A DNA stretch of 64,000 bases from Siphonodentalium dalli. Lineage: Eukaryota; Mollusca; Scaphopoda; Gadilida; Siphonodentaliidae. Of the stretch, positions 2,276-62,063 are shown piece after piece; position 1 is the first letter of the stretch, and every line of letters begins with the position of its first letter. The position numbers and the translations under genes are program-made. The notes beneath the pieces are model-generated. The model was given only the letters and a program-made list of their open reading frames with translations. It was not told the DNA's origin and ran no database searches. Location: assembly GCA_032622095.1 (NCBI GenBank), contig CP136066.1, forward strand, positions 208,073,655 through 208,137,654, read 5' to 3'.

Positions 2276-2529
2276 GTATGAGAGACACATTGCTCCCTAT
2301 GGGAGACTCGCATATATAACATAATTGACCAATATGGCTTCACCGTCGAGCATCAGATATATTCAAGGCCCGCGCTGGCACGAAATGTACTTTTACAAAA
2401 TATTTTGCCAAATGAAAATAATGTTTTGCCATATTCTAAATTCTGTAATTCTGGTTCTTCTCGAGTTTTTTATATTGAAAATGAGAACAATTATAAGTAG
2501 ATCTATTTTACTTGTATTTGTTGATGATA

Positions 2530-4664: not shown

Positions 4665-5189
4665 ATAGTTGTTTTACAAACAGTCATCAAATTTATTCTA
4701 TTTTCCATGAACCCTATTCGAATGCATTGGGTCCCTTTAATGTTAACATCTGAGTAATGCTCGCTTTTTGCCACATTCCGGTCCGATTCAAAGGATTAGA
4801 ATAATGTCGATGAATACCTTGATATTGACATCATTCACCTCGGAAGGATAAAATCCTGTCGATGAATACCTTTATATTGACTTCATTCGCCGCGGGAGGA
4901 TCAAAACATGTCGATGAATACCGGTACCTTTATATTGAATTCATTCGCCGCGGGAAGGGTAATCTGAGTCATAGATTCTATCGGGACGCTTTGATCATGA
5001 ACCCGCAATGTGACATCCAAGGTCCCGAGCGGGCGACAAATCCTCGTAGCTCACCGTAAGCAATAATGATGAATATACATTGGTCACAGAGACAACATTG
5101 CACGCTCTATACATCTTTTCAAGATTTACGTTTGAAACGTGATAAAATTTTTATCTCTTTCTAATTTTTCTTCTTCTAACCTTTCTAAG

Positions 5190-5360
5190 TGGACGGTGCT
5201 TGGATAGAGTGGACTGACATGGGAAGCTGCTCTGTCACATGTGGAGCCGGATCTAAACAACAAGCACGGTCGTGTACAAGTCCACCGCCTAGCAACGGGG
5301 GAGATACTTGCAGTGGAAATTTAACGCAGACAGTCGGCTGCATCGAGACAGCATGCCCAG
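5190..5360 (+). CDS. TSP1 repeat exon
   Basis: This is a 171 bp, phase 1-1 exon with acceptor TTTCTAAG and donor CCAG|GTTTGT. The module reads AWIEW, CSVTCGAG, a QARSC strand, then SNGGDTC and a final C-x4-AC, giving six cysteines. It is more like the exon at 478 than the 972/2105 pair, especially the PPPxxGG loop. The phase-1 exit joins cleanly to the exon at 15025 (ACP-V-W), so the transcript can skip the broken module at 6174. Confidence 0.9.
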
Positions 5361-6173
5361 GTTTGTGTGCAATCTGCTTTCCGTTTCTAATATTGCACAT
5401 GGTTTCTCAGCAATGTCGTCTTGCTTTTGTTGCTTCTAATTAGGAGATAAACGGACTCTGTTGAGTTCATATATTCGGGGATTCGAGCATGAACACAGTT
5501 TGTGAACAGCCGGCTACAGCCTACAGGGTGCGCTTATTCACATTGTAATTCAATCGAACAAAAACAAAATAAAAGAAACTGCACGAAAAGCAGTTTTTAT
5601 CCACATTACATGCTTTGAAGTGAGATATCCATTGTACCGTGATCAAATCTCTGGGTATGTTCCATGGGGTTACAAGTAACAGCGCAAGAACTGCACCAGA
5701 ACAGCTTCGTGTTAACGGTACTGGTGTCGGTTGTAAACAAACTTCCGGTTGACTCGATTGGGCGACTCCTATGACGTATTTTTACGCGCGTTGTCAATGA
5801 CACCATACAACATTCATCAATCAGCGGCCGATGTGAATATAAAAATCAACCGTCCATTTCAAACTCAATATATATCGATAAAAAACACCACCTTTTGTGC
5901 AAAATTTCTGTTATCGACAGATCTAATGTAAATATGTGTGTTAGTTGTCGACGTTGCAATCAGCCACTTATCCTGTTGACGAACGTACCTCATCCATAAA
6001 CGATGTTTTCAATCATTAGGACCCCGAGCGATCATTATCCAGGTTCCATCTTATTCTATAAATTCTTTCCTAATTTTCTTTTGGATTTTCAAAGTTTGGC
6101 ATTAAGTTATGTTATCATATTATGTATCTGCTAAGTCATTACTGTGGTTAACCGTGTCGCATCGTTCCAGCAG
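5361..6173 (+). other. Intron, no recognised content
   Basis: No coding exon, repeat family or inverted repeat was recognised in these 0.8 kb. The 3' end approaches the acceptor GTTCCAGCAG used by the broken TSP1 exon that follows. Confidence 0.4.
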
Positions 6174-6246
6174 TTAATGGATATTGGTCATCGTGGACCA
6201 CTGGATCGTGCAGCGCGGCATGTGGGATTGGAACCAAAATTCGGAC
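6174..6246 (+). pseudogene. TSP1 exon interrupted by a LINE
   Basis: After the acceptor CCAGCAG the phase-1 reading is VNGYWSSW...CSAACGIGTKIRT, an unmistakable first half of a TSP1 domain. It stops at CGGACTC and runs straight into a T-tract and reverse-transcriptase coding sequence. Only two of six cysteines remain. Unless exon skipping occurs, this module is inactivated. A possible remnant of its second half appears near 8547. Confidence 0.75.
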
Positions 6247-8545
6247 TCTTTTTTTTATGAAAATTTCCATGATCTTGTTGAAGAAGATTACAACTTGCTC
6301 TGTACTCTGATCCCCAACCAATTGAGCACATCTGCAGTAAGGAAGATTGGGCTACAAGAAGTTATTAAAGCTATCAAGAACTTATCATCCGGGAAAGTTC
6401 CAGATCACCTCGTTCTCACAGCGGAACATTTATAATTTGGAGGTAATGCAACATGCAGTTTTCTCTGCGACATTCTCAACAACATCCTGATGTCTGGTTC
6501 TATGCCGAAACTTATGAAAGATGGAATTCTTACTCCTATTCAAAATAAAGACAAAGATGCCAAAATTCCTGGGAACTACATAAGTATCACGGTGACATCA
6601 GTGATCAGTAAGGTACTCGAGTCAATCATCTTCGACATAACTGATCCTATCCTCTCATCAACCCAAAATCAATTACAATCAGGTTTTACTGCTGGCGTAT
6701 CCCCAGCTCACACAGCCCTCATAGTCTCAGAGGTCATCAATGAAGCCAAAGACATGAACAAACCTGTTGATTTGGCCACTCTGGATGCTGCTAAAGCTTT
6801 CGACAAAGTAGATCACAACCACCTAATGAGAAAACTATACTTTGATGGAGTCGAAGATGGCCACTGGACTCTCATTAAACACATGCAGATTGATTCCTGT
6901 AACAGAGTCAAATGGGACAACCTTCTGGGTGAATCCTTCCAATCAAAACAAGGAATTCGACAAGGTGGAATGTTATCGCCGTCCCTGTATAACAGATACA
7001 ACAACGACATCCCTGTAACACTCCAGAAGTATAAAATTGGTGCAAAAATCGGATCAGTATTCTTAGGTGTGCCCACAGTAGCTGATGACATTTATATCCT
7101 CTCTCACAATCCCGAAGAACTACAAACAGCATTGAATATAATCCAGAATATGACTTCAGCAGACAGAGTCACTGTTAATCCAACCAAAAGCAATATTGTT
7201 ATCTTCAACTCGACCAAGTCTCATCTTCCAAGCTCTCAAACTGAATGGACCATTGGAAATGACAAAATAAAAGCCACATCTTCTACTATCCATCTTGGAC
7301 TTGAGAGATCCAATATTCCTACCTCAATGATTGTTGGAGGCGAGCTCTCTACTCAATCATTGGAGCTGGGCTACATGGCAGTAATGGTATCAGTCCAGTC
7401 ATCTCACTACAGTTATACCGCCTCTTTGGGAGACCGATTATCTATGGCCTTGAGGTAATGAATATGAATTGTTCTGAAGTAAGACGTATGACTAGCTATG
7501 AAGTGAACCTCTTGAATCAGATACAAAACCTCCCACAAGATGTTCTACAAGCTACATACTGCTTGGACAGCTACCGATCACAGCTAAAATTGAAAATAAT
7601 GCTCTCACTTTATTTCACCGGGCTATCTCAAGAATTGGTTCTCCAGAATACCATCAGTCTGGCAAGGAGGCAGATAATCACGAAAGACCTGGATAGCAAC
7701 AGCTGGTTCTCTCAAATCAGAAAACTCTTAAATAAGTACTCACTTCCTACCTACAGCCTTTGATTTATTAGAATGTCCACCAAGCAAGAACCAATGGAAA
7801 AAACAGTTACTGGAGGCAGTTGATAGCTATCATCAATCACCCTGGACACAAGAAATACAAAAATTGACATAATTGAAGTACCTCAACATCCAAGACAACC
7901 CAACAATGAATCCTCACCAACTATGGTCTTCAGTTCCGAAATCAACATTTGAAGTTGCTAGAGCTACAGTCAAAGCTAAATTACTGACAGGGAGTTACAC
8001 CCTTCAAGCCAACAGGCATAGATTCAACCAGTTCAATGTGGCTCCTACCTGTCTCCTATGCAATAAATCACCTGAAACAAGGCAGAATTTTCTCCTGGAA
8101 TGAGATGAATTATCCACTGCCAGACAGAAACATCTAGATGAATTGAAGGAAGTGCTAGAAGATAACTTCAATAGACTGCAGGCAGAACAAATCATGACTG
8201 ATAACAATTTATTGACCCAATGTCTGTTGGATTGCTCTCACCCACTGATCAGCTCCATTACACAGGAAATTAGCAAAGTTACTGAACCGATTGAGAGTAG
8301 CAGTAGGGCTATGATCTATGAATTACACCACATTAGGAAAAGCAAAATCCAGATGCAACAATAGACAATTGCCTTTGCCATCACAGTTTCAATCTGATCT
8401 AATCATTGCCAAAGACTTGTTAAATTCTTATATAATAGTAGTATCTTCATACTAACTCTCCACTAACTCATCAGACTTGTGATTTATTGTGCTTATATAA
8501 TGTGATTATTCAAGGATACAATCAGAGGATAAACTCAACCATTTA
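6247..8545 (+). pseudogene. Degenerate non-LTR retrotransposon (LINE) insertion
   Basis: The sequence encodes a reverse transcriptase of the LINE type in several broken frames. Frame pieces lie at 6250-6432, 6436-7458, 7458-7763 and 7873-8364. The RT motif A reads LDAAKAFDKVDH, motif B reads SKQGIRQGGMLSP, and the catalytic box is VADDI in place of the usual F/YADD. A C-terminal zinc-binding segment reads PTCLLCNKSPETRQNFLLE, resembling the RT-associated zinc knuckle. There are in-frame stops and at least one frameshift near 7330. The 5' endonuclease is absent, typical of truncated insertion. The clade (CR1, I or related) cannot be settled by eye. Confidence 0.82.
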
Positions 8546-37945: not shown

Positions 37946-39937
37946 TTATTTGGTGCCGTCATTAAAACGTTTGGTACGAATGATAATTGTTAAGTTGTCT
38001 TCCAGTGAGATTTTAGTGGATCCACACAAGAGTGTCTCGGATGTGACGATACCCAGATTAGAAATTGATGATAAGAGTGAGCGTCGTTGGGAGCGGTATC
38101 TAACACATTCAAGTAAATAGTGTTCTGTGTCCTCAATTTCACCACAGACACACCTGGGATGATCTGAGACAAAGTTGGAATAAGTATGGTAATTTAGGTG
38201 GCTACAATGTAATCTTAGTCGGGCGTGCAGTGTTTGGGCTTCGCGGGTGTACGCATAGTAAAACCATCTGTGGGTCTTCTTCATTTTCAAGTCGAGAGAC
38301 CTCTTAAATGCTGAGAGGGAATCCATTTTAATAATATTTTTGTCGAGATTGTTCCATAGGGACGTCGTTGATGGAAGAAATGATCTTCTGTGATATTCAT
38401 AGTCAAAACCAGGGATTATGAAGTGATTGCTTTGTCTAGTTTCGCGCTTAGATATTTGCCCATGAGTCGGGGTTACTAGTGTTCTAAGATAAATCGGAGA
38501 CTGACCATATATATACCATTTTATAAAAAAAACTTTAAATTCTTGTTTTTCACGACGTGATTTCAAAGTTTCCCAACCAGTTTCTAACAACAGTGTAGAA
38601 TTACCGACAGATCTGGTGGCACCCGTCACAATACGAGCTGCTTCGTATTGTACGTTTTCGATTTTATCAGAGTCTTGTTGGGAGCATCCGTCCCATACAA
38701 TACAGGAGTATTCGAGGATTGATCGAACTAGCGTGAAGTAGCATTTTTCGAGTGCTGTTCGGTCAAGATATAATCGGTATTTCCTCAGTAGAGAGATGCG
38801 TTTCCACGCGGTCTTAGTCATTTCTTCAATATGAGGCCCCCAGCTTCCGTCGTTACTCAATATAATGCCAAGATGTTTGTGTACTTTTGCTTCTTTTATG
38901 GGCTGTTGGTTCATGTACAGGGTTGGGTGGTTTAGTGGGATACGTTTTCTGGAGCATGTTAGTGATTCTGTCTTGAGTTCATTGAATTTAACATGCCATT
39001 TAGAAGACCAAGCTTGGAGTTTGTCAATATCCTGTTGCAGCACTATCGCTCCAGTGTGAGGGTCATTGGTAGTAAATGCGATGGATGTGTCGTCGGCAAA
39101 GAGGCGAACGTTACATGTAATATTTGCTACAATGTCGAGAAAGAGAATAGGGCCCAATACATATCCCTGGGGCACTCCTGCGGTGGTCTCCCCCCATTTG
39201 GATTGACCATGTCGTAGGACAACACGCTGCTGCCGGTTAGACAGATATGATCTGAACCATTGTAATAGGTTATCACGAATTCCTATACCATGAAGTTTAA
39301 ATAGTAGACCGCCGTGCCATACTTTGTCAAATGCTTTACTAATGTCGAAAAATAGTAATCGAATGTCTTGCCCATCGTTAAGTGAACTACTGATATTATT
39401 ATATATTTCACACAACTGATAAGAGGTTGAGTCAGCGGGCATGAAACCAGATTGGTGTTCTGTTAAAATATGGTTTGACTGGAGATAAGTCATGAAATGC
39501 TTGGCGATGCATTTTTCAAATAATTTGCTTATACAACTCAGAAGTGAAATCGGACGATAATTTTCTGGATTTCTACGATCGCCTTTCTTGTGTATTGGTA
39601 CCACGTTCGCTCGTTTCCATTCCGGAGGAAAGTATGATTCGCGAAGAAAACGGTTGAACATCTGCGAAAGAGACTTGCTTAAGCTTGTACAGTTTTTCAG
39701 TAATCGCGGGCTAATACAATCAGGACCAAATGCTTTGTCAGGCTGTATTGCCTTAAGTGCGTTGAAGACTTCTAGTTCGGTTATTTCTATACAATTCAAT
39801 GTAGAAAGATCTGGGTCATCATTTAATATATCTGGGGGGTTATATGACCTATCAATGGATGCGATACTGCAGAAATAATTATTGAGGACCTCTGATTTGT
39901 CCGCGTCGGCCGATAAAATGTTGCCTTGCCTTGCCAA
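37946..39937 (-). CDS. LINE reverse transcriptase open frame
   Basis: A 663-codon minus-strand frame encodes the RT part of a Jockey/CR1-type non-LTR retrotransposon. Visible in order: an N-terminal linker (AIQPDKAFGPDCISPRLLK), RT block PEWKRANVVPIHKKGDRRNP, ENYRPISLLS, motif A LFFDISKAFDKVWH, motif B TAGVPQGYVLGPILF, catalytic FADDTS, then a thumb and a C-terminal CVCGEIEDTEHYLLEC knuckle. The usual YINDI after motif B is partly deleted (LDIVANI). Catalytic Asp-Asp is intact. The upstream endonuclease frame is offset by a small duplication, so the element as it stands is unlikely to be active. Confidence 0.88.
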   Translation of the reverse strand: MARQGNILSADADKSEVLNNYFCSIASIDRSYNPPDILNDDPDLSTLNCIEITELEVFNALKAIQPDKAFGPDCISPRLLKNCTSLSKSLSQMFNRFLRESYFPPEWKRANVVPIHKKGDRRNPENYRPISLLSCISKLFEKCIAKHFMTYLQSNHILTEHQSGFMPADSTSYQLCEIYNNISSSLNDGQDIRLLFFDISKAFDKVWHGGLLFKLHGIGIRDNLLQWFRSYLSNRQQRVVLRHGQSKWGETTAGVPQGYVLGPILFLDIVANITCNVRLFADDTSIAFTTNDPHTGAIVLQQDIDKLQAWSSKWHVKFNELKTESLTCSRKRIPLNHPTLYMNQQPIKEAKVHKHLGIILSNDGSWGPHIEEMTKTAWKRISLLRKYRLYLDRTALEKCYFTLVRSILEYSCIVWDGCSQQDSDKIENVQYEAARIVTGATRSVGNSTLLLETGWETLKSRREKQEFKVFFIKWYIYGQSPIYLRTLVTPTHGQISKRETRQSNHFIIPGFDYEYHRRSFLPSTTSLWNNLDKNIIKMDSLSAFKRSLDLKMKKTHRWFYYAYTREAQTLHARLRLHCSHLNYHTYSNFVSDHPRCVCGEIEDTEHYLLECVRYRSQRRSLLSSISNLGIVTSETLLCGSTKISLEDNLTIIIRTKRFNDGTK

Positions 39938-40735
39938 TTTAAAGGTGGCACATTGTCATATCTATTGGTGGAGAGACGATTAAAAGTTTTCCACCACTTC
40001 CTGTCCGTTGTCATGGGATCATGCAGGATTTCTTGTACCCTAGTGAGATATATGCGTTTAGCCGCTCTCACTTCGTTAATTACATCGTTGCGAATTTTAC
40101 GATATTTGCACCAGACTGCGGGAGTATTTCTTATTTTTGCATTTTTGTGTATTCTTTTTCGTTGCCTAATTAAATACTTAATCCGGGGGTTTATCCATTC
40201 AGGCTCTTCTCTCCTATATTGGATTGTTTTGTGTGGAATGTGTTTTTGCATACGGTCATTCAGTTTTTCTGTTAAGATACTACATATATTTTCGACTGGT
40301 ATATATTTAAACAACTGTGGCCACTCGGGAGATTCTATATGATGGTTGATGGCAGGATAATCGGCTTGTTCGTACATGTAAATTGTGCGCGTGGCAGGTT
40401 TATTCGGTTTTATTGGGTTATAGATGTGAATGTTTACGTACACTGGGACATGGTATCGGACTAAGTTGCAAAAGAAGGGTTCTAGTGTTCCACTTTCCTT
40501 TTTCACGCAGTTCTCGTTTATTAGTACGACGTCTATTAATGTCTCGGAATATTCAGTGAAATTTGTCGAGTCATTGATAACTTGGTCAAGAGTAAACTGA
40601 GTGCATATTGATGATACTTTAGTACTCGTTATGGCAAACTGATTTTCATTTAAGTCTCCACATATGACTATTCTTTTAGATGGATACGCATTGATCACGT
40701 CGCCAATATTACCTTCTATTTCACACCAGCATTGT
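39823..40735 (-). pseudogene. LINE endonuclease fragment, frameshifted to RT
   Basis: The frame contains IVICGDLNEN, the late strand of APE-type endonucleases (GDFN/GDLN), then a long basic linker WINPRIKYLIRQRKRIHKNA and the usual RKWWKTFNRL segment before the RT. The first two thirds of the endonuclease are missing, so the copy is 5' truncated near 40735, next to a CAT-repeat tract. The join to the RT frame is broken at a repeated GGCAA pentamer (near 39930). Confidence 0.82.
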
Positions 40736-44904: not shown

Positions 44905-46294
44905 AATATACTCCCTCCCTCCTCCTCTCTCTCTCTCATTCTCTCTCCTCTCTCTCTCTCTCTCCGCTCTCCTCTCTCGCTCTCTCACTCTCTCTCCCCT
45001 CTCTCTCACTCCCTATCTCTTCCTCACTCTCTCTCGCCCCCCCTCTCTCTCTCTCGCTCCCCTCTCTCTTACTCTCTCTCTCTCTCGCTCCCTCTCTCTC
45101 TCCCTCCTTCTCGCTCACTCTCCCTTTCTCTCTCCCTCTCTATCTCTCCCTATCTCTCACGCCCTCTCTCCCTCTCTTCTCCCCTCTCTCACTCTCTCCT
45201 CCTCTCTCTCTCTCCATCTCTTCTCCCCTCCTCTCTTCCTCTCTCTCTCTATTCCTCTCTCTCTCTATTCCTCTCTCTCATCTCCTCTTCTCTCTCTCTA
45301 TCCTCCCTCTCTCGTCCCATCTCTCTCCCCTCCTCTCTCCCTCTCTCTCTCCCTCTCTCTATCTCACTCGCTCTCTCTCTTCCTCTCTCATCCCCTCTCT
45401 CTCGCTCCATCTCTCTCCCCTCCTCTTCCTCTCTCTCTCAATCCCTCTCTCTCTCCCCCTCCTCTCGTCCCTCTCCCACTCCCTCTCTCTCTCACTCTCT
45501 CTCTCTCCCCTCCCCCTCTCTCACTCGCTCTCTCACTCCCTCTCTCTCTCGCTCTCTCTCCTCCCTCTCTCTCACTCTCTGTCACTCTCTCTCCTCCTCT
45601 CTCTCACTCCCTCTCACTCTCTCTCTTCCCTCTCTCTCACTCTCTCACTCTCTCTCCTCCCTCTCTCTCACTCTCTCTCCTCACTCTCTCTCATTCTCTC
45701 TCTCCTCCCTCTCTCTCACTCTTTCTCACTCTCTCTCTCCTCCCTCTCTCTCACTCTCTCTCACTCTCTCTCTCTCTCCTCCCTCTCTCTCACTCTCTCT
45801 CACTCTTTCTCTCTCCTCCCTCTCTCTCACTCCTCTCGCTCTCTCTCTCCTCCCTCTCACTCGCTCTCTCTCGCTCACTCGCTCTCTCACTCTCTCTCTC
45901 GCTCCCTCTCTCTCTCACTTGCTCTCTCGCGCGCTCCTCTCTCTCTCTCGCGCGCTCCCTCTCTCTCCCGCTCGCTCACTCGCTCGCTCCCTCCATCTTT
46001 CTATCTCTCTCACTCGCTCTCTCTCTCGCTCGCTTCCCCTCTCTCTCTCCATCCTCTCTCTTTCCCTCTCTCCCCCTCTCTCTCTCTCTCGCTCCCCTCC
46101 TCTCCATATCTCTCTCCCTCTCTCTCTCGCTCCCTCTCTCTCCCCCTCCTCTCTCCTCTCCCTCACCCTCTCTCTCTCTGTCGCTCCCCCTCTCTCCCCA
46201 TCCTCTCTCCCTCTCTCTTTCTCCCTCTCTCTCTCCTCTCTCTCCCTCACTCTCTCTCTCCCTCTCTGTCTATCCCTCGCTCCCCTCTCTCTCG

Positions 46295-46351
<57 letters not shown>

Positions 46352-47550: not shown

Positions 47551-47624
47551 TTTTAGGTTATATATATATATGTTCTCGGTTGAGTAGAACACGAGGTTGA
47601 TGTGTAGATATATAGGTCATAGGG

Positions 47625-48958
47625 TTAACTGTATATAAGCCCCGCCGGCGACAGTGGTAACTGTATATAAGTCCCGTCGGCGATAGTGTTAACTGTATAT
47701 AAGTCCCGTCGGTGATAGTATTAGTGAAAATAAGTCCCGTCGGTGATAGTGTTAACTGTATATAAGTCCCGCCGGCGACAGTGTTAACTGTATATAAGTC
47801 CCGTCGGCGATAGTGTTAATGTATATAAGTCGCGCCGGTGAAAGTGTTAACTGTATATAAGTCCCGCCGGTGATAGTGTTAATGTATATAAGTCCCGTCG
47901 GCGATAGTGTTAATGTATATAAGTCCTGTCGGCGATAGTGTTAATGTATATAAGTCCCGTCGGCGACAGTGGTAACTGTATATAAGTCCCGCCGGTGATA
48001 GTGTTAACTGTATATAAGTCCCGCCGGTGATAGTGTTAACTGTATATAAGTCCCACCGGTGATAGTGTTAACTGTATATAAGTCCCGTCGGTGATAGTGT
48101 TAACTGTATATAAGTCCCGCTGGTGATAGTGTTAACTGTATATAAGTCCCGTCGGCGATAGTGTTAACTGTATATAAGTCCCGCCGGTGATAGTGTTAAC
48201 TGTATATAAGTCCCGTCGGCGATAGTGTTAATTGTATATAAGTCCCGTCGGCGATAGTGTTAATGTATATAAGTCCCGTCGGCGACAGTGTTAACTGTAT
48301 ATAAGTCCCGTCGGCGATAGTGTTAATGTATATAAGTCCCGTCGGAGATAGTGTTAATGTATATAAGTCCCGTCGGCGATAGTGTTAACTGTATATAAGT
48401 CCTGTCGGCGATAGTGTTAATGTATATAAGTCCCGTCGGCGACAGTGGTAACTGTATATAAGTCCCGCCGGTGATAGTGTTAACTGTATATAAGTCCCGC
48501 CGGTGATAGTGTTAACTGTATATAAGTCCCGCCGGTGATAGTGTTAACTGTATATAAGTCCCGTCGGTGATAGTGTTAACTGTATATACGTCCCGACGGC
48601 GATAGTGTTAATGTATATAAGTCCCGTCGGAGATAGTGTTAATGTATATAAGTCCCGTCGGCGATAGTGTTAACTGTATATAAGTCCTGTCGGCGATAGT
48701 GTTAATGTATATAAGTCCCGTCGGCGACAGTGGTAACTGTATATAAGTCCCGCCGGTGATAGTGTTAACTGTATATAAGTCCCGCCGGTGATAGTGTTAA
48801 CTGTATATAAGTCCCGCCGGTGATAGTGTTAACTGTATATAAGTCCCGTCGGTGATAGTGTTAACTGTATATACGTCCCGACGGCGATAGTGTTAATGTA
48901 TATAAGTCCCGCCGGCGATAGTGTTAACTGTATATAAGTCCCGCCGGTGAATGGTTAA
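47625..48958. repeat. 32 bp satellite array with higher-order period
   Basis: About 42 units of TGTATATAAGTCCCGTCGGC + GATAGTGTTAAC (31 or 32 bases). Variants at GTCGG/GCCGG, GCGA/GTGA and AC/A mark the units. A distinctive unit with TATACGTCCCGACGG occurs at 48581 and 48866, exactly 285 bases apart, and its neighbours repeat in the same order. That is a nine-unit higher-order repeat. Every unit holds a TATATAAG motif. Confidence 0.92.
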
Positions 48959-50994: not shown

Positions 50995-51200
50995 TACACC
51001 TCTCTCTCTCTCTCTATAGTAGGGCGGCTCCATGTCAAAAAAGGGGTGAATCGTGCATTTTATGGTAAAAGCAACAAACTTTGTATACAACATCCTGAGG
51101 TGATATATTGTGGATTTGGATATCATGCCAAGCTAGGGAGAACCCATGGTTGCCATGGTAACCACCGAAAAACATGGCCGCCAAATTTGCTTTTTGTGGA
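50995..51200. repeat. Dispersed repeat, inverted relative to 61670-61870
   Basis: TAGTAGGGCGG, ATGCACGATT/AATCGTGCAT, TTTTATGGTAAAAGC and CCATGGTTGCCATGG occur here and, complemented and in reverse order, at 61670-61870. Confidence 0.65.
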
Positions 51201-52004
51201 AGTGCGAATTCTTTGTTTTATTTCTTTAAACACATAATTAGATGACAAAATTTTACTTTAATTACATGTTTTAACCAAGTGTGCACGTTGGGCGTTATTA
51301 ACACATTGGCTTTAGCACTGGTTGTGGAAAAAAGGCTGACAAAATGGCCGCCAAAACAGACAAGATGGCCGCCAAGAGATATTTTTGTTTTGTTTTATTA
51401 AACTTTTTCATAGCGGAAATCTTGCAACAAGTTTTTTTTCTCAGACAATGTGACAATTTTTGAAGTATCACAGTTCGGATAAAAGGGTAAGTACATTTCG
51501 TAGCTTTCTAAACATATTTCAGGACCTATTCTAGCCACTGTATGTGATAATATATTCCTTCATGAGATCTCCAACTGATGTTCGACAATTAAACATATTT
51601 CTCAATACAATACGATATAACGGTTTTATGCAAAATGGAAATTCATAATATTAGCCAAAAGAGAGTTATGCCTCCTGAATCTAACCCAGAGTCTTAGTTT
51701 ATCTGATTCTTGTCACCATGACGTCGCTGACGTCATGATGTCATCAACTAACTGATGGTTTCTTGTCAATAACAAGGTTCCTAATAGAATCCATTGTTCT
51801 AACGCGTATACTACATAGTCCATGTCTTCACACACGTGTACATCAAATGGATGGGGTTGTTAGTGGCATGTTTCTACACTATTAAGGTAAATATATGGCA
51901 TTTCATTGACATTATTATGTTATGTATGGCGTTAGTTGGGGGTCTTCTCTGTGAGTGCATATAAGTAAGAACATTATGCTGCTCAAAGTTGTTTTGATGT
52001 GTTA

Positions 52005-52400
52005 ATACTGTTATGGTGGGGCAAGTTTTCCTGGCAAGCGCCTATGAAAGAAAACGCTGCCCAAACTTTATTTGTCATATATGGTGTTATGGGTGGTGAA
52101 ATTATTCCTGGCAAGCGCCTAGGAAATAGAATGCTGCCCAAATTGTATTTGACATATGGTGTTATGGGTGGTGAAATTCTTCCTGGCAACCGCATAGGAA
52201 AGAGAACGCTGCCCAAATTGTATTTGACATATGGTGTTATGGGTGGTGAAATTATTCCTGGCAAGCGCCTAGGAAAGAGAACGCTGCCCATATTTTATTG
52301 TTCATATGGTGTTATGTCTGGTTAAATTATTCCTGGCAAGCGCCTGGGAAAGAAAACGCTACCGAAATGGTATTCGACATATGGTGTTATGGGTGGGGAA
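52005..52400. repeat. 75 bp tandem repeat (about 5 units)
   Basis: Units contain GGTGAAATTATTCCTGGCAA, GCGCCTAGGAAAGAGAACGC and CATATGGTGTTATG. The 75-base period keeps frames open on both strands (25-residue repeats such as MGGEIIPGKRLGKRTLPKLY). No domain is recognised and I do not call a gene. Confidence 0.85.
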
Positions 52401-52971
52401 AGTGAATTCATTATTAACGGGAAACACATAGTAACAAGAATGCTGCCATAATGCATTGTATCCGTTTATGTTCAAGCGGATTTTATGATTTTTTTAAAGA
52501 CATATTATGTGCTTGTTCGGGTGCGAGAAACTGGTAAGTTAGTATTCAGGTGCTATGCCAACTGGAGCAATGTAGCATTTTACCAACATCACCAAAATAT
52601 CAAGCAAATCGACCGTACCATTCCATACAAAACGTTGTCTGAACTACGCTAAATTGTAAATATTTACTACTCGAATCGGGACGCTTTTATCTGCGATAAA
52701 CTAACGAAAACGAATTCGCCATCGACTGTCACTACATTTAATTTATATACAAGAATGACGGTTATCAGTTTAAATATACTATTTGTAAAAATAACTACTC
52801 TGAACAATATTATTCTCCATTTCTATTTGATTACCAGAACGGAGTGTTTTACATCACTTTAAGGGTTTTTTTTTCTGAAAAGCACATTTGCAGGAATAAT
52901 CTCCCCAAGAGCTTGGTTATATGCATTATAATGAAATGTCTTAATTACTTTCACAGGTGTGAATACGGCAA

Positions 52972-53073
52972 ATGATGGATGCGACTGGAGACGCAAAATG
53001 TTTCCCAAAATCCGTGGGTTGCCACAATTTACTTCTTAAAGATTCCCATTCGACTGATTTGCCAAATGAGAAG
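52972..53073 (+). CDS. Likely first coding exon of locus 2
   Basis: Acceptor TTTCACAG at 52956 is followed by an ATG at 52972. The frame MMDATGDAKCFPKSVGCHNL runs to AAG|GTATAT at 53073 and leaves at phase 0. The next exon at 53787 enters at phase 0, so the two join as LPNEK-VNLSLIPKLPET. The exon is short and has no domain. The call rests on the splice sites and the phase match. Confidence 0.5.
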
Positions 53074-53786
53074 GTATATAGTTTCCATCTGTCACAATAT
53101 ATAAAATATAGCTCCTTAATTATTGGTAAATGCAGTCGGAACACGAGACACGGTCTTTTTCTTCACAAGGTGATAATTTATGTTATTTCAACAGGTCACT
53201 CCAATGCATATGAAGTCTATATAGTATTATTTTATTCATATATTAATGTGCTCTGATCATCAGTGTGTGACTAAAGTTGAAAACTTATTGTCTATTGTAA
53301 GTTTTAATGCCACTTTAGCTCCAAAATAAATCTAATAACATTCACTTTCAAATTATTCCCAGTATCAAGATAATTGATAAATACTTGAACTAACTTTCTA
53401 CGAGCATTATATGCCACAGAATGACGCATTGAAGTCATAAAACATACAATTTGAGCACGATGGTTGGTTACCAAACACAAACATGCAGCAATTAGAGAAA
53501 AATGCGTTCCGCGTTAGTCAATTCCTGATGCGAAAAAATTATAAAATCTGGAAAATGGTTGTGAGTATGGAAACTATTTTATTTGTCCACCCATGAAACC
53601 GCCATACCAACATTTCGTATATTTGTCCACATATCGTACACCTCCTTCCTAATTACGTAGAGAGAATTCGGAAGCTCGAATGAGCCATGCCCGTTAAGAT
53701 TATATATCACTATAAATTATGCACATTTCATTTCAACATACATATCTATGACCTTATACATCAGCTATTTCATTCCATTCTCCTAG

Positions 53787-54579
53787 GTCAATTTGAGCCT
53801 GATACCAAAGTTACCAGAAACAGCAATAAGGCCATTAGACGAAACAGACTGGTCAAAGTGCCTGTTCTGCCAAGAAAATAAAGATGAGAAGTTGTGTGAA
53901 CCACTCAATTCAAAAAGGACATATGTTGGTGCTGCCTATCGAGCGAGATTGATAACGAGTTATCCAACTTTATTGATGCGGGATGTCTTCCACAGTCAAT
54001 AAAAATCTCTCGATTAGATGACGGGAATGGCATTCGGTCGACACTGCTCAGCAACTCAGCGGTATATCACACATCATGTCGCCTTGACTATTCGAAAAGT
54101 CGCCTTGATCGAGCATTAAAAAGAAAACATATTTTAATGGATGAGTTTCCGAACAAATAAACAAGGCATCAGCGTGAACAACATCCCAAGAAAGATAAAG
54201 TGGAAGAATGTTTCCTGTGCAATAAACCGGAAATGACAACAAATCAGCTCCATCAACCTCTGACAAAAATAGTTAGTGAAAGAGTGAGGGAGTGTGCAAC
54301 TAAATTGTTGGATGGACGAATATTAGCGAAAGTTGCTGTGACTGATATAGTTGCCAGTGGACTTAAATATCATGCTAAATGTCTAGTTAAATATTGCAAC
54401 GAGGCAGCAAGATCATCACCATTAGACAAAAGTGTTCCTCTTCACTCAAGACAGATGGTGCAGGCTCGAGCATTTGCAGAGCTTATAGAATACGTTGAGG
54501 AAGTCATTGCAGACCACCAGAAGCTTAACTCATTCCCTGTTTTCAAGATGTCAACTCTTGTTAAATTACACAAAGAAAG
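53787..54579 (+). pseudogene. Locus 2 exon 2: Cys-motif region, frameshifted
   Basis: Acceptor CTCCTAG and donor AAAG|GTAAGC. The first part has WSKCLFCQEN. After a frameshift near 53965 it continues as DAGCLPQSIKISRLDDGNGI and SAVYHTSCRLDY. After an in-frame TAA at 54159 it reads EECFLCNKPE ... LKYHAKCLVKYCNEA. CxxC plus HxxxC pairs occur twice, giving two possible zinc-binding modules. I recognise the LDDGxGI and KYHxKC signatures from uncharacterised multicopy proteins of invertebrates and fish. Two lesions make this part non-functional unless they are assembly errors. Confidence 0.7.
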
Positions 54580-55273
54580 GTAAGCTGTGTTCATAGAGTA
54601 TTAAACCAACTCTTAAAACGTTACCACCAAAATACTACATCACCAGATTCGGGGCTACCATAGACGCGTATAAACTATTAAGGTCCCAAACGTTAAAGAC
54701 AAATTTGAAGATTAGTTAAGAGTGTTGTATAGTTTTCTATCTTTGCCATAACATAAAAGGGTGACAAATACGAGTATCGTATCGCTTCAAATTTGGATCA
54801 ATTCGAAGTCAGGGCTTTATAATGGTGTCAGGAATCATACCATTTAGTGAGCAGTTGCTCGACATTCGAGAATTTGTGCATACATGTGTATATAAATCCA
54901 GTCCTTCCCACGAGAAAAACAAGCGAGAGCATTTATTTGCTCCTGTAATTCAGAAGACGGGTGTAATGTTGCACACATACTATAATTGTAAGTTGGGTTT
55001 GTCTCAAACAAAGTCATCGTGGAATAGACCTATGTCCAGTTACACTTAAATATGCCATAATTGAACTGAGATGTAACAGATCTAAATAAACCATTAAATA
55101 GTTCACTGTTGAACCAACAATTACAGTCTCCATTAGTATTTTGAGAAGAGGGCCGGGTGCGAATTTTAGTACCCGTAAATTGAAAATTACGAGTGTGTGT
55201 GGGTGCGAGAGCAATCACTCAGGTCTCCTGTGAAGGACTGGTATACTGATTTATGCTTTAATTCCCTATGCAG
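54580..55273 (+). other. Locus 2 intron
   Basis: An intron between the phase-2 donor at 54579 and the acceptor CCTATGCAG at 55273. Frames inside it show no domain and no repeat was recognised. Confidence 0.5.
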
Positions 55274-56107
55274 ATTGATTCAGCTCGGATCAGAGGAAAC
55301 TCCAAACGATTACGATGTTCACACAACACGAACGAAAGAACGCATTCTCAATCATATCCCAGAATTACATCCCCTTTCCGGATGGGCGAGAGATATTGCT
55401 AGCATTTCGTCAGGATGTTGGAGCTACGATGAAAAACATACGTGATCACGACCTTAACAGTGATGTTGTTATCCTCTCCAAGGCTTCGCAAATTTTACGT
55501 AGATATATTATGGGAAAACAAACATGCTTCTCAAATACATTTGATAAAGACTTCCAGACAGCGTGTATTCCCGAGTCTCTATCGTTATTCATGATTATAT
55601 ATGCTCCTCTCTGGCACCAACGTTCAAGATAAACCAGTGGTAAAGGAGACACAATCCATGGTAACTGTTTGTCAGATGGTGATGTTCAATACACTGTCCA
55701 AAATGCCAAAGTCTCATCCTGCTGTACGACACATTAGGAATCGTGAGCCTCCGCTGCCAGTGTATATTGGGGTTCTTTTGCACACTAAAGCGCGCAGCAA
55801 AGACTTGGTCGAAAGACTGTTCAACCTCGGTCTCTCAATCTCATATGATAGAGTGCTGGAAATTTCAACAGATGTTGGAACTAAGGTCTGCCAAGAGTAC
55901 CAACGACTGGACACTGTCTATCCAGTCAGGTTGAAAGCTGGTGTGTTCACCACCTCAGCAGTAGACAATATAAATCATCAGTCAAGTTTAACAACCTCGA
56001 AAGAGTCGTTTAATGGCACTGGAATATCCATCTTTCAACATCATGAATCTGGAAGCGACACCCTGACGAATAAGAACGATTATCTTCTGTATTGTCTCAC
56101 ATGTTGA
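55274..56107 (+). pseudogene. Locus 2 exon 3: central region, three frames
   Basis: Entering at phase 2 the reading is RLIQLGSEE...TKERILNHIPEL. It then shifts to FPDGREILLAFRQDVGATMK and SKASQILRRYIMG. Near 55600 it shifts again at a TATATA run to LSGTNVQDKPVVKETQSMVT ... LGLSISYDRVLEIS ... VFTTSAVDNINHQSS. The pieces are consecutive parts of one family, so single-base or two-base indels explain the breaks. TGA closes the frame at 56105. Similarity seems to resume in other frames to about 56205, implying a further lesion before the donor. Confidence 0.7.
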
Positions 56108-57117
56108 AAAAACTAGCCTTTATTCAGCGTTGAAGGGGTATGTGGACCTATACCCGTTATACCGTTGGATGACGCGGCCACAGTAAAAACACATATATAA
56201 AGTGCGTACATATCTGCTGCAACATATCCGCGAGCAAATAGGTTTACATTGGACTGATATTATTCTGAAATAGGCGCACAGTGAGATTATTTTTAATTTG
56301 TTTTGTTAATTTATTTAATAAATGATTTTAAATCAAAATTTTGAGAAAAAAAATAATATAACCTCCGCCATGGTACCATGAGTCGCCACACCAAATTTGG
56401 TTGAAATCGTACCAGCAATCCAAAATGCAGACAGACAGGCGGACAGATAGATAGATCACATTCTTATACATAATATAAGTAACAATTCTGAGCAAAAAGA
56501 CATAAGATGAAAAATATCTGTCCATCCATATATTTATTGACTATAGAAACGGGCTATGTCCGTCCGTTCGTTCGCCCATCACACGTATGAGTAACTCCAT
56601 GGTGTAATAACCTCCTCTTATATATTTCATCCCAGAGATTTGAAACTTCAGAATAGTGTTGCCCATATATTGAAGATATGCAACATGTATATAGATGATG
56701 GGAAAGTTATTAACCTATTTTTAAAATAATTTTCTGTATGAGGGTACCTTCATGGTGTAATCAACTCCCACATATTGGAGGATATGTGCAACATGTATAT
56801 AGATGACGGAATTTTTTTTACGGAGTTTTTAACCCCCTTTTCAACTAATTTCTTTAAAAAAGCGGCATCGACTTGCCGTTTTCGTCGGACACTGTGGTCG
56901 GCTGACCTTTTATTAGCATAATATCACAACAAGTAGACTGATATATAGCGGTACAAACCAGGTCAAACTCAAAAATCAATTCATTTCATTCTTGGCATTT
57001 ATAAGGATGTCAGTAGCTTGCCGACATTGCAATTTCATCCAATATCTTCCGGTCTGTAAATTCTAGTAGGCATGTTATTTGATATCTATATTGAGACTAT
57101 TAAACTATATTTTACAG
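56108..57117 (+). other. Locus 2 intron with repeat fragments
   Basis: 56330-56460 holds a Helitron family B-like fragment (CACCAAATTTGGTTGAAATC and an AGACAGAC tract). 56540-56830 repeats ATATGCAACATGTATATAGATG twice. The acceptor TTTTACAG is at 57117. No exon was seen. Confidence 0.5.
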
Positions 57118-59397
57118 ATGGTTGAAACACGTGTCACTGTCAGTGAATGGTGGGGTTGGAACTGATGAAGCCATATCATGGGCAGCCTACCATACACATT
57201 ATCCAGATATGGGCACTGACTGGGCGAACGACTTCATATCTCTTGCCTTTGTTTCAAGAAGATGCCGCAACAGTATCAATGATACGCCATTCGTTCGATG
57301 TCATCAAGAAGATAACAAACCTTACAAATCCAGAGCAACCACCCGTACTAGCAATGGATCAGCCATTGTTTGCTATAGCTACAGGTATCCAGTGGAAATG
57401 GCCAGAACTTTATGGTGAATCTCAATTCATTATCATGTTTTGTGGTTTGCATATCGAAGGGGCGGCTTTGAGAACTGTGGGCGATTTCCTCAAGGGCAGT
57501 GGTTGGAATGATCTACTAGTGCAGGCAGGTGTGGTGACATCTGGTGTTGCAGATTCTCTCCTGAAGGCATCACATATAACGAGAACCAGACGGGCGCATC
57601 AAGTGACTGCGTGTGCTCTGTATGCGGCTTTGGACGGTGCATACAATGAAGATGGCGGAGAGGGTGGGTCTGTTCAGAGCATGGATGAATGGTGTTCGCA
57701 ACAACAACAAAGTCAGCCAATGTTTAAGTTCTGGTTCACCGTTCTTCAGTTACAACTGACAATACTAATCCTTATCCGATCCATCAGAACTGGAAACTTC
57801 GATCTATATATTCAGTCTCTTGCCAGACGAACCGGATGGTTCTTTACTCTTGATCATTATAATTATGCAAGATGGATCCCAGTTCACATCAGGGATATGG
57901 TCACATTACAACGTCGGCATCCATCTGTCTACACTGCATTCGAGAAAGGAAAATATACTGTGGGAAAGACAACACACGCGTTCTCTAAGATAGCTATTGA
58001 CCAGGCCCACGAGCAAAATAATGCCATTGTTAAAGGCGATGGGGGCGCAGTTGGCTTGATGGATAGCCCGTCTGCATTGCAGCGATGGATGGTCAGCGGA
58101 CCAGAGATGGCAAGGCTCATTACTGAGTTTGAAACTGCAGTAGACAAGAATAGTACAAATGGCTCTATAGATATGCGTCACCATGAAGATAGGCCAGCAT
58201 TCCAGAAGTCATTCAGGCAAGATGTCGCATCCCTCAAGTCGACACTAATTGACAATGGTAATCCATTTTCAGAGAAAAATGGCGATCTTCTGGTCATCAC
58301 TACCCGTGACATCCTACCAAGTAATGTTGTCGACACAATTTATAGAATTGAGGAGTTGGGCCGAATACAGTATGAGGATTATGTCAAGGCACGGTTTGTG
58401 AAACTGAAGAAAATACCGCTTGACGAAACCATCAGCAAGAATTCATTGCCACTTTTAAATGCACAACAGAAGCTCAACAATAACAAACACAAACTAACTG
58501 TAAACGCTTTGAAGAGTGATATACACTTATTTTCAAGACTGTATGTCGCTTGTCAAGTTCGTGATGGGAACCTTTCTGACTTCGTTTCTCATGAGAATCA
58601 CCCATATCCACCATCTCTCTCTGAAGAAGGAAAGTTGAGATTCACTTCTAAATGCGACATTGTTAAGTGTCTAGAGGCGTCCATCCCACAAGAAGATGAG
58701 ACAACGGGTGACGCAAGAACAGTAGTTCCGGATGTCGTGGTGCTTGATGGCTCGGCCATCGTTAACATGTTGAAACCTGGATTTGCCAGGACATTCGGGG
58801 AGTATTCCCAAGATGTGTTTATACCATATGTTAACTCATATCTGGAAAAGGCTCAGCGTGTGGATATTGTCTGGGACGAATACCGGGATGGCAGTTTGAA
58901 AGAACAAACTAGAGATAAAAGAGGAAAGGGCAAACGCCGTCGAGTGGAACCTAACAGTACGATTCCGAAAAACTGGACAGAATTTTTGAGAGAATCGGAG
59001 AACAAGAAGGAGCTATTCGTTTATCTGGCACAGGAAGCTGTGAAGATAACAACTCACAAGCAAGTCATTAGCTCAATTGGTCCGGGAGTTATTTGCCGAC
59101 ATCAACAGGACAATGGAAAGCTGGACAATTGCCGTCATGAGGAAGCCGATAGTCGTATGATGGTCCATGTCGCAGATGCTGTCTCTAAGAATTTTAAATC
59201 AATTGTCATCAGAACTGTAGACAGTGATATTGTTGTGTTAGCTGTTCATATGTACGCCCGACTTGGTGGGAAGCCGTCAGAGCTATGGATAGCGTACGGA
59301 GTGGGCAAACAGTTCCGACACATCCCTGTTCACAGAATATCAGCATCTAGTGGCGTTGACAAGATCCTAGCACTCCCGATGTTCCATGCATTCACAG
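57118..59397 (+). CDS. Locus 2 exon 4: FEN1/PIN-like nuclease core
   Basis: The exon first reads WLKHVSLSVN...ISWAAYHTHYPDMG. After one frameshift near 57230 it stays open for about 720 codons to the phase-1 donor ACAG|GTTGGT. The frame from ATG 57147 is numbered below. An N-terminal part has MDQPLFAIA, MFCGLHIEGA and AIDQAHEQNNAIVKGDGGAV (function unknown). The C-terminal part has VVLDGSAIV (Asp534), HEEADSR (Glu665, Glu666, Asp668) and TVDSDIVVLAV (Asp692, Asp694). The next exon adds GCD. These acidic clusters match the order in FEN1/XPG nucleases: DG, EAEA, SxDxD, GxDY. Catalysis is inferred, not shown. Confidence 0.8.
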
Positions 59398-59832
59398 GTT
59401 GGTGTCACTATTCACGTCAAGTACGTGCCAGTGCTAATTCTCACTAGGGATTTGATTATTTTATGAGAAAATATTCGTTCAGAGGTTTTGTTCATACTTT
59501 TTGAACAATAACAATTCCACAGACATTTACGTTTTTACCTAAGTGAGTCAATTGGAACTATATGACACACGTGAATGCAGGATGTTTGGTGTTCAAAACT
59601 ATTACATATTTTTTAAAAACTATTCCACATAATAAACAATTTGTAAAAATGATCTATCTCTCTCACAAAACATACCCAATTATTTACAATAAATGGAACT
59701 GAGTGACATCAACATTTCTAACTAATCGGACTATAGTGATTTCGGAGAGGATGCAGCAATTGGTTATTTAAATGAATCTTCAAAAAGTATGTTTATAAGG
59801 TAGCCAACACAAGCCTTTCTACAACTTTTCAG
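59398..59832 (+). other. Locus 2 last intron
   Basis: A 435 bp intron with GT at 59398 and TTTTCAG at 59832, phase 1. It interrupts the nuclease motif between Thr-Gly and Cys-Asp. No repeat was recognised in it. Confidence 0.7.
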
Positions 59833-60371
59833 GATGTGATACGGTATCTGGATTTTCCGGGAGGGGTAAGAAGACAGCTTGGGACACATGGTCAAAGAAT
59901 CCGTATATCACGGAAACATTCAAGAATTTGGTTATTGATCCTACTCTGACAAATGTGGATAATTCAATGGACGTTATCGAGAAATTTGTCGTGCGGTTGT
60001 ACGAGAAGTCCAGTGAATCCACTACTGTAAACGAGGCGAGGCTCCACTTATTTGCTCAAAAAGGTCGGGATTTGGTGAATATACCTCCAACAAAAAATGC
60101 ATTGGAAAACCACGTAAAAAGAGCGGTGTATCAATCAGGCCACTGCTGGTACAATATTGATGCTGGGTATAGCGCCCCGGAGCCAGAATTTTGGGGATGG
60201 ACAAAGAGCCCTGAAGGAAGTTGGAGTGTGAGATGGACTGATCTTCCAGAAGCATCCAAAGCTTGTCGTGAACTATTGCGATGTGGTTGCAAAAAAGGGT
60301 GCAAAAACAATTGCAAATGCTCGAGGGCATCATTAAGCTGTACTGCTCTATGCAGTTGTAATTGCAAATAA
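59833..60371 (+). CDS. Locus 2 exon 5: nuclease end and CXC-like tail
   Basis: The phase-1 entry completes FHAFTG-CDTVSGFSGRGKKTAW, which parallels the G-C-D-Y-x-x-G-I-x-G-x-G-x-K-x-A helix-hairpin-helix of FEN1/XPG enzymes. A helical region follows (EKFVVRLYEKSS, HVKRAVYQSGHCWY). The C-terminus is CGCKKGCKNNCKCSRASLSC followed by TALCSCNCK, a cysteine array resembling the CXC (tesmin/CRC) DNA-binding motif. The 180-codon frame is intact and ends at TAA 60369. DNA binding and nuclease action are inferences from motifs. Confidence 0.82.
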
Positions 60372-60411
60372 GTGTTGCCAAAAGTGGCATGTATGCAAAC
60401 TTTTCCAACCC

Positions 60412-60738
60412 TTTAGGGTGCGTTCACACAGCTAGCAAAATTGACTGGCGATTTGTTAGGAATCCTTCATTGCACATTCCTGAATTGCATTCCTGAATTG
60501 CAAAATGAGTGTCTTCGATTGTTTTATCCCTTATTGGAGCGACGAAATACGAGTTATTGCACGATTGATTCTTATAATATATTAAAAGCTTATTTTCGAG
60601 CACAATTCAGTTGTATAACTATAGGGAATTACATATATATCACTGTACTTGTACATGTAGCTGTTCATATCATAGCATTTTATAGCTCTTAACGTCAAAC
60701 TGTCTGTAAATTTGCCAGGCGCGTGAACGTACCCTTAA
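60412..60738. mobile_element. TTAA-type MITE after locus 2
   Basis: GGGTGCGTTCACAC at the left and GTGAACGTACCC at the right are inverted, flanked by TTTA and TTAA. It begins 41 bases after the stop codon and would lie in any 3' untranslated region. No coding capacity is present. Confidence 0.7.
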
Positions 60739-61660
60739 TTGAATGCATAAGTACTGTATCAGTGATTATTTCTAAACTTTATTTTTTAAATGTGGCTAAC
60801 ACGTGTGCTGATTCTTTGTAAGTCATGAAATCTTTGCAATCAAGCATGGGTTTATTGATCATAGTATCATAGTATCACGGTTGCATACAGAAAATAATTG
60901 CGTTTGCTATTGCACATGTAAACAATTCATATCATACCTTGTCGCACATAATTCGCATCAACCCTCATAATAAAAACACCTGCTTACCTATATTTTGAAG
61001 AACTACAGTTAATATCATAAATAGTTTGTGGTACGTGTATGTTGCGCGTATGATACCACAATGATTAGAAGCTTGTGAATTGTGACCAAAGTGTTATTAT
61101 AGCTGCAAATATGTAATCGGGTAGCTCCATAGCAACGGTTGCCAAGCAGTTTTTTGCCAGACCAATGGTCGATGTTGTCCACACACATTCGCTAAAATGA
61201 TAATATGATATATATGTTGAGGCGGAGGATTGTCATGATCAACTTTCAGACAGTTTTATATCATATAAATTCCTCTCGTTTCATTATAACCATCACTTAT
61301 AGTAATCAAAACATACAACCCATATGTACATACAATTGTTTTTTCTGCATTATATTTATGCTATTCCACCATCTCCTAGTCTATAACTTGTTTGTAATCA
61401 TTAAAGTTGTTTTATATACCGGTGATTTATCAATGTTTATATTTTCTTGTCAAAGTACATTTTCATAAACAATAAATGTACACACACGCCTCAGTAAAAT
61501 GTTGATATACATAGCCAATAATAGGGATTTTCCGACAAATGGCGGCCATTTTATCCGCCATTTTGAATCTACCCACTATAACGGAAACATGGGTCAATGG
61601 ATATACAGCCTGATCCCTTTTCAACACAAATAGATGCATAAAACATTGTTTTTCGATCCG
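60739..61660. other. Intergenic stretch
   Basis: AT-rich sequence in which no gene, RNA or repeat family was recognised. Confidence 0.4.
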
Positions 61661-61669
61661 AAACTGAGT

Positions 61670-61870
61670 CATAACGATGCACACTTGTTGGACTTGCGAG
61701 AAAAACAAGATGTTTTTTTTAAACGGTTGCCATGGCAACCATGGGCATTTTCCAGCTTGGCATGATATCCAAAATGTCTTAATTTTATATGTAGTACATG
61801 CGTGCCAAGTTTGGTGCTTTTACCATAAAATGCACGATTTTGTCATATATCCGCCCCACTACTATCTCTG
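61670..61870. repeat. Dispersed repeat, inverted copy of 50995-51200
   Basis: Contains CGGTTGCCATGGCAACCATG (an internal palindrome) and CTTTTACCATAAAATGCACG. The unit ends at CCCCACTACTATCTCT. Confidence 0.65.
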
Positions 61871-61885
61871 TCAATTACAAGACGC

Positions 61886-62063
61886 CAATTATTCACATAT
61901 TATAGAGTAATTATTCACATATTATAGAGCAATTATTCACATATTATAGAGCAATTATTCACATATTATAGAGTAATTATTCACATATTATAGAGTGATT
62001 ATTCACATATTATAGAGTAATTATTCACATATTATAGAGTAACTATTCACATATAATATAGAG
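61886..62063. repeat. 22 bp tandem repeat
   Basis: Eight units of AATTATTCACATATTATAGA G(T/C) with little divergence, directly after the dispersed repeat. Confidence 0.88.

Follow-up and report, generated by a model that had tools for sequence, protein, structure and literature searches.

Transposons of the AcademX group belong to the Academ superfamily, which was reportedly described by Kapitonov and Jurka in 2010 and by Kojima in 2020. The 'X' of AcademX stands for XPG. A second nuclease, TnsA, is used by Tn7. The available part of a published account (PMC10045372) gives target-site duplications of 9-10 bp for AcademH and of 3-4 bp for AcademX, a difference seemingly tied to the helicase and the nuclease that these elements encode. 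Amplification of Academ elements in bivalves is described in the available part of a second account (PMC10294476). Here we describe a locus of the scaphopod mollusc Siphonodentalium dalli. The window, by which we mean the whole stretch of 64,000 nucleotides analysed (G000:C6:208073655-208137654), carries at positions 51017-61861 what is very probably a decayed cut-and-paste DNA transposon of AcademX type, matched to that group by its features and not by a consensus sequence. AcademX is already known, and the window element would be a further member.

Ends, target-site duplications and copies

The element measures 10,845 bp. Its outer ends read TAGTAGGGCGG at 51017 and, on the - strand, TAGTGGGGCGG ending at 61861, each with a CTA target-site duplication beside it (51014-51016 and 61862-61864). 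The left terminal inverted repeat (TIR; 51017-51081, + strand) includes a 33-nucleotide part, 51049-51081, that is 97% complementary to 61807-61839 in the right TIR (61807-61861, - strand). Further in, a second inverted-repeat block of 58 nucleotides (51115-51172, + strand) is 81% complementary to 61716-61773 (- strand). The right end is the point where homology with another copy (L025) stops; in the same comparison no homology to the outer left end of the window element was seen. The region of the 766-amino-acid reading frame discussed below is the 3' half of this decayed transposon.

Three relatives (C3:15.3 Mb, C3:20.7 Mb and C9:160.9 Mb), whose protein is approximately 47% identical to that of the window, are closely similar at the DNA level: the first shares 98.9-99.1% identity with the others over 5.9 kb, and the remaining pair shares 97.8% over 8.6 kb. 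Their agreement stops at identical bases on both sides. They begin and finish with TAGTATAGCGGCTAAGACC / TAGTATAGCGGCTAAGACCAAAAAT and are flanked by 3-bp duplications (CAG, TGG and ACA), of which TGG is less sure because that copy lies in a minisatellite. Together with the CTA of the window, 3-bp target duplications are present in all four copies in which both ends were read. A mobile element was one explanation offered by the original prediction, with a search of the flanks as a means of checking it; that search has now recovered both terminal repeats and target duplications, from dispersed copies.

The 25-bp terminus of the relatives occurs at 14 places in the genome (a 2.23-Gb assembly of nine contigs), and its backward control at none. 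Twelve of these places form six inward-facing TIR pairs, each enclosing a listed protein place, and the remaining two lie on one strand. The 25-mer core of the window TIR is far more frequent, with 294 places (142 + 152; control 0). Among the 100 of these that were listed, there are 26 inward pairs of less than 25 kb, nine of them 6.9-7.1 kb long (for example, G000:C2:210025552-210032384). Six of the 11 window-type protein copies in the listed TIR range have the core within 10 kb and three lie inside a pair. What speaks against a simple relation between TIR and protein is that 23 of the 26 listed pairs enclose no listed window-type protein; for this reason we consider that the family includes many derivatives.

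Searches of the genome, whose match counts are all lower bounds, returned at least 62 matches to the 766-amino-acid protein (best E 0; 59 scored of 3,690 first-look candidates), at least 152 to the nuclease part (150 scored of 2,199) and at least 121 to a divergent nuclease query (117 scored of 2,684), far more than chance would give and in keeping with the multicopy nature proposed at the outset, when relatives were suggested in cnidarians, molluscs and fish. Among the nuclease matches listed, 16 places (self included) are 79-100% identical and lie on eight of the nine contigs; the others are 34-51% identical. Scans of viral contigs revealed no relative, and searches of the window proteins against Pfam, PHROG and PDB gave no match above the cut-off.

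Some nuclease places are found in opposite orientation. One locus (L068) carries an inverted duplication of the nuclease end (94% over 1,784 bp); in another (L067) the matching inverted stretches are 0.7-2.1 kb long and 87-94% identical. Eleven further opposite-strand pairs (- then +, with starts 1.2-2.6 kb apart) occur among the matches listed. Elements with two nuclease genes were considered as an explanation for opposite-strand places 1-3 kb apart and rejected, since L067 and L068 carry long inverted duplications; these two loci are therefore read as fold-back-like derivatives.

Coding sequence, putative transposase core and putative nuclease domain

The region 57118-60371 had been predicted to be a single gene with the motifs DG, HEEAD, VDSD and GCD followed by a CXC tail. 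All of these are present, in that order. The proposed gene start and the free-standing status of the gene did not survive, the region being the 3' half of a larger transposon. It contains a frame of 766 amino acids (57147-59447) and another of 190 amino acids (59799-60368; stop TAA 60369-60371). The acidic residues of the motifs lie at D 58746, D 58863/58875, E 59139/59142, D 59148 and D 59220/59226 and, in the second frame, at D 59838. Neither 57118 nor 57147 is the gene start: protein P0001 opens in a shifted frame, and in-frame homology to an intact relative begins at 57240.

On the + strand, an open 3' exon (57240-59397) carries the putative transposase core (D 57357, E 58011) and then the FEN1-like domain (D 58746, D 58875, E 59142, D 59148, D 59220 and D 59226). 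A GT-AG intron of 435 bp (59398-59832) parts GCD from the other motifs and splices in frame to FTG|CDTVSGFSGRGKKTAW. The last exon (59833-60371) contains GCD (D 59838), GxGKK and a nine-cysteine CXC-like tail from 60282, ending with the TAA codon. Eleven window-type copies, a set that includes the window and excludes L010, were checked for this intron. Donor and acceptor are kept in ten, with introns of 435-445 bp; in the eleventh (L016) the donor is present and the acceptor was not seen. The copy at C3:140.4 Mb (L024) has GGATGTATT in its acceptor exon in place of the GGATGTGAT of the others, and has seemingly lost the Asp of GCD.

In five relatives from other lineages (L021, L022, L029, L030 and L031) the same protein is found in one uninterrupted frame of 1,507-1,534 amino acids, stop to stop. 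Its order is Cys/His-rich N-terminal segments, a conserved core in which two Asp are invariant and one Glu nearly so, the nuclease domain with its carboxylates in FEN1/XPG order (approximately the last quarter to third of the protein) and the nine-cysteine tail. In L021 the protein has 1,533 amino acids (2048-6646 of that locus), with the nuclease domain at 5408-6433. Aligned to the intact relative, the window copy falls into pieces in changing frames: 53832-53942, 53996-54571 (one stop), 55179-55397, 55502-56050 (one stop), 57240-59399 and 59817-60362. The 5' half is thus broken while the 3' exon is open. The N-terminal Cys/His-rich part (53832-54571, + strand) has a frame change between 53942 and 53996 and a stop near 54158. 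The middle part (55179-56050, + strand), which includes the first of the candidate catalytic residues (the Asp of AVDNIN, at 55964), changes frame between 55397 and 55502 and has a stop near 55592. Positions 534-640 of the intact relative (approximately 1.2 kb of the window) have no match in the alignment, and some of the gaps between pieces may be introns. With these stops and shifts of frame, a complete protein cannot be produced from the window copy in its present state.

The ratio of nonsynonymous to synonymous substitution rates (dN/dS) is 0.40-0.51 when the window exon is compared with each of four copies that were selected for their long open frames, a choice that favours low values. 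Other pairs run higher, with 0.46, 0.70 and 0.92 for three pairs among these window-type copies; two further pairs gave 0.42 and 0.54. Among three young relatives it is 0.99-1.26 at a synonymous divergence (dS) of 0.007-0.008, based on 7-8 synonymous differences. The numbers are small; they fit a transposon that was under selection while its lineage was active and under little once inserted.

No known function had been recognised for the large N-terminal region of the predicted protein (AIDQAHEQNNAIVKGDGGAV). From its sequence it is probably the end of a transposase core of the DDE type (aspartate, aspartate, glutamate). The core is better conserved than the nuclease (61% versus 51% mean column identity, eight members). 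Candidate catalytic residues are the D of VDN (seven of seven aligned members reaching it), the D of an MDQP-type motif (nine of nine) and the E of HEQ (eight of nine), chosen by a parallel drawn by eye with DUF6589 proteins, on which we infer this D/D/E set. Two near-identical copies (L047 and L048) of one divergent lineage, 27-28% identical to the intact relative over approximately 1,000 amino acids, match Pfam DUF6589 above the cut-off (E 2.4e-7). Several observations pull the other way: L015 has Ala in place of the HEQ Glu, only one of the first eight members matched DUF6589 (E 0.021), and the profile compared directly with that of three DUF6589 proteins gave no significant match (P 0.096). 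The window pieces themselves gave no Pfam match above the cut-off, DUF6589 included.

DUF6589 has at least 90 matches in the genome (102 scored of 196). Frames of at least 130 amino acids were surveyed at six DUF6589 loci. At two of these (L041 and L042) a RecQ-like frame on the other strand faces the DUF6589 frame, as expected of the helicase-bearing AcademH. The RecQ zinc-binding matches have E values of 5.7e-7 and 1.5e-4 (the latter below the cut-off), and the helicase motif QEVGRAGRDG is readable. No nuclease frame was seen at either locus within the 1.5 kb read on each side. The genome thus probably holds AcademH elements as well, at these two loci. No helicase came up when seven window pieces and seven relatives were scanned with Pfam.

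The FEN1/XPG-like character of the nuclease was examined with 26 domains, all from this genome and with the window copy outside the set (19 sequences after a redundancy filter). Eight acidic positions are kept almost throughout: D57, E147, E148 and D174 in all 26, and D14, D150, D176 and D233 in 25. Conservation of the acids across homologues, on which the original prediction had staked its reading, is therefore found. The window copy carries these positions, the last (GCD) only after splicing. Seven of the eight have counterparts, in matching order, in the seven carboxylates that are invariant among five aligned FEN1 sequences (D27, D86, E158, E160, D179, D181 and D242); the eighth, E147, belongs to the window family alone. 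Compared with 16 archaeal FEN1 proteins, the enriched profile of the 26 domains reached an hhalign score of 31.8 (P 0.002). None of 100 column-shuffled FEN1 profiles attained this (best 21.7), and the reversed profile scored 16.8. The significant stretch places the family's GCD..GxGKK on the GTD..GIGPK of FEN1. A further profile of 21 members, drawn from 27 nuclease domains (window included) by leaving out near-duplicates and one truncated member, was compared with the 177,635 sequences of PDB. It ranked Exonuclease 1 first, with two stretches in register, at a non-significant E of 0.34. Two of the 21 members matched the Pfam 5'-3' exonuclease domain, in register but again not significantly (best E 0.0033).

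The relationship to FEN1 is weakened by a number of other results. The first comparison of FEN1 profiles gave P 0.28 and another P 0.04; significance was reached after enlargement with 17 nuclease domains (to 26) and the 16 archaeal proteins. The N-terminal half of the nuclease alone is not significant (score 17.2, shuffle maximum 20.5), although its alignment still pairs LDG with VDG and VVWDxYxxxSLK with VVFDGKPxxxK. An eight-member profile had HflX as its sole PDB match (E 0.018), apolipoprotein A-I came next after Exonuclease 1 in the 21-member ranking (E 0.46), and 12 unrelated Pfam families were matched by one of the 21 members each. Pfam XPG_I was matched by none of the nuclease domains searched, and structure prediction from the single sequence, with no alignment, gave no interpretable fold (pLDDT 34.7). 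With one test significant and weaker tests leaning likewise, though not all of them, the sequence evidence leans towards FEN1. The predicted FEN1/XPG-like acidic skeleton is supported by its ordered, conserved acids and by a FEN1 score above every shuffle; the Exonuclease 1 and exonuclease-domain matches add nothing significant to it.

The window family differs from FEN1, XPG and EXO1 in being fused to a transposase, in having a cysteine-rich tail and in leaving XPG_I unmatched. The spacing of the tail (C-x-C-x3-C-x3-C-x-C-x6-C-x3-C-x-C) resembles the Tesmin/TSO1 CXC pattern, whereas a Pfam search of the window tail (P0002) gave no Tesmin/TSO1 CXC match. The FEN1-like active site persists in lineages whose proteins otherwise share 25-46% identity, so the element must depend on the nuclease in some way.

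A palindromic repeat in the left end

Inside the left end of the window element lies a subterminal tandem array of 75 bp x 5.2 (52009-52401, + strand). It holds five copies of an imperfect palindrome, TTCCTGGCAAGCGCCTAGGAAA, at 52028, 52105, 52180, 52255 and 52330, with 0-2 mismatches. A similar core, with 1-4 mismatches, is repeated 5-8 times in the left ends of the three relatives. A single unit folds into a hairpin of -6.1 kcal/mol, a stability reached by two of 200 shuffles. In two of the three relatives a different palindrome, AATAAGTTCAACAAACGACC/GGTCGTTTGTTGAACTTATT, is found directly past the array (at approximately 230-301 of L021), where a 48-nucleotide stretch folds at -22.1 kcal/mol.

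The exact 21-mer TCCTGGCAAGCGCCTAGGAAA occurs 236 times in the genome (105 + 131; control 0), often in tandem. The 100 places listed form 55 clusters. Nine of these have a listed Academ-type or DUF6589 place within 10 kb downstream on the same strand, against a mean of 0.04 and a maximum of 2 in 500 random placements; the control sides gave one (upstream) and none (opposite strand). Window-type places account for four of the nine, and DUF6589 places, near palindromes at C2:20868017 and C2:112482873, for two. Two more belong to the L030/L031 lineage, which is 40% identical to the nuclease of the window, and one to the L066 lineage, with 30% identity to the L047 query. The other 46 clusters have no listed protein place downstream, which says little because only the matches listed were compared. 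For an exact 21-mer in such distant lineages, the simplest idea is that the transposase or a host factor binds it; alternatively, the families may have recombined with one another. As a site common to several lineages and lying near DUF6589 places, the palindrome is an unexpected conserved DNA site and a candidate transposase or promoter element.

Assignment, rival explanations and a possible reaction

AcademX is the best place to file the element because of the DUF6589 match, the RecQ-like frames facing DUF6589 and the agreement with the published 3-4 bp duplications and nuclease of AcademX. Shared with AcademX are the 3-bp target duplications, the TIRs and the presence of a DDE-type core and a nuclease in one element. 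Beside AcademX, which is known here by description, the present element shows a tandem palindrome array and an intron that splits the nuclease active site. The likeness to AcademH and DUF6589 proteins lies in a related transposase core, through the DUF6589 match of one lineage, and in the 21-bp palindrome, which lies no more than 10 kb upstream of two DUF6589 places. The differences are the RecQ-like gene at two of six loci, with no nuclease frame in the part read, and the AcademH duplications of 9-10 bp in the available part of the published account (PMC10045372) against 3 bp here. A literature search, with subscription papers and preprints mostly outside it, found no work joining Academ with XPG, naming DUF6589, or combining an XPG nuclease with a transposase and TIRs. 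With this assignment, a kind of multicopy 'uncharacterised' gene is explained as the rear half of an AcademX transposon.

The same features could belong to a superfamily of its own, not yet named, that merely resembles AcademX in duplication length and nuclease. The link to AcademH does run through one DUF6589-matching lineage and two RecQ neighbours, and the likeness to AcademX is one of description and not of direct sequence comparison, with a P of 0.096 for the DUF6589 profiles. We nevertheless judge this quite improbable: DUF6589 is above the cut-off in a lineage that is 27-28% identical to the intact relative over some 1,000 amino acids, and 3-bp duplications, a nuclease and a 21-bp repeat near two DUF6589 places occur together. 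More remote by far is a host gene family, domesticated or for self-defence, that has expanded in this genome. It would account for the open 3' exon in several copies and for the dN/dS of 0.40-0.51 between the window and four open-frame copies; it sits badly with terminal repeats and target duplications at the ends of homology, a broken 5' half, dN/dS of 0.99-1.26 among young relatives (7-8 synonymous differences) and dispersal over eight of nine contigs. Self-defence, the other possibility raised in the original prediction, was rejected on the inverted repeats, target duplications and decay.

Two further explanations concern the nuclease. The C-terminal domain could be a metal nuclease of another fold, its acids convergent on the FEN1 order. 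The single tests are indeed weak or off target and the pLDDT of the single-sequence model is 34.7; since the order of the acids is preserved and they align with those of FEN1 and EXO1, in register, at VFDG..K and GCDY..GIG, and since none of 100 shuffles reaches the FEN1 score, we hold this to be improbable. Alternatively, a true FEN1-like domain could serve the element outside the transposition reaction, acting for instance on intermediates of host repair or on hairpins formed by inverted repeats. In related elements the transposase core apparently manages without a nuclease, because the two RecQ-neighboured DUF6589 loci show none in the 1.5 kb read on either side and because AcademH is published with a helicase, as far as the available part of PMC10045372 goes. 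Opposed to this are the single frame shared with the transposase core in all nine relatives examined and the acids kept in 25-26 of 26 domains. We regard a role outside transposition as rather unlikely, while giving it some weight.

The structure of the element, the conservation of its candidate active sites and its past mobility are shown by the sequence. If the nuclease takes part in transposition of the AcademX element, the DDE-type core would bind the terminal repeats, and perhaps also the palindromic subterminal repeats, and, after cutting the transferred strand, would join it to the target at breaks offset by 3 bp. Acting as a structure-specific nuclease with two metals, the FEN1-like domain would cut or trim the non-transferred 5' strand at excision, or flaps after insertion. 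The CXC tail and the cysteine-rich parts may help to bind DNA. The weakest step is the use of two nucleases, suggested by the fusion, by the conservation of the acids and by analogy with TnsA of Tn7. In its strongest form the idea makes the FEN1-like domain an obligate second-strand cutter, a eukaryotic counterpart of TnsA, and the 21-bp palindrome a transposase site, possibly extruded as a hairpin, that AcademX and AcademH have both retained without change from a time when their proteins could still easily be recognised as related. We consider this doubtful and offer it as a speculation. The reason for a second nuclease in some DDE transposons, and its possible influence on the length of the duplication (3 bp versus 9-10 bp), become testable questions.

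Other repeats and frames were noticed elsewhere in the window. Frames resembling non-LTR (long terminal repeat) retrotransposon reverse transcriptase, by eye, lie at 37946-40698 (- strand) and 6490-7458 (+ strand). There is a long CT-rich tract at 44925-46348 and a minisatellite (32 bp x 42) at 47619-48947. A 22-bp x 7.8 array (61887-62058) starts 26 bp past the right end of the element.

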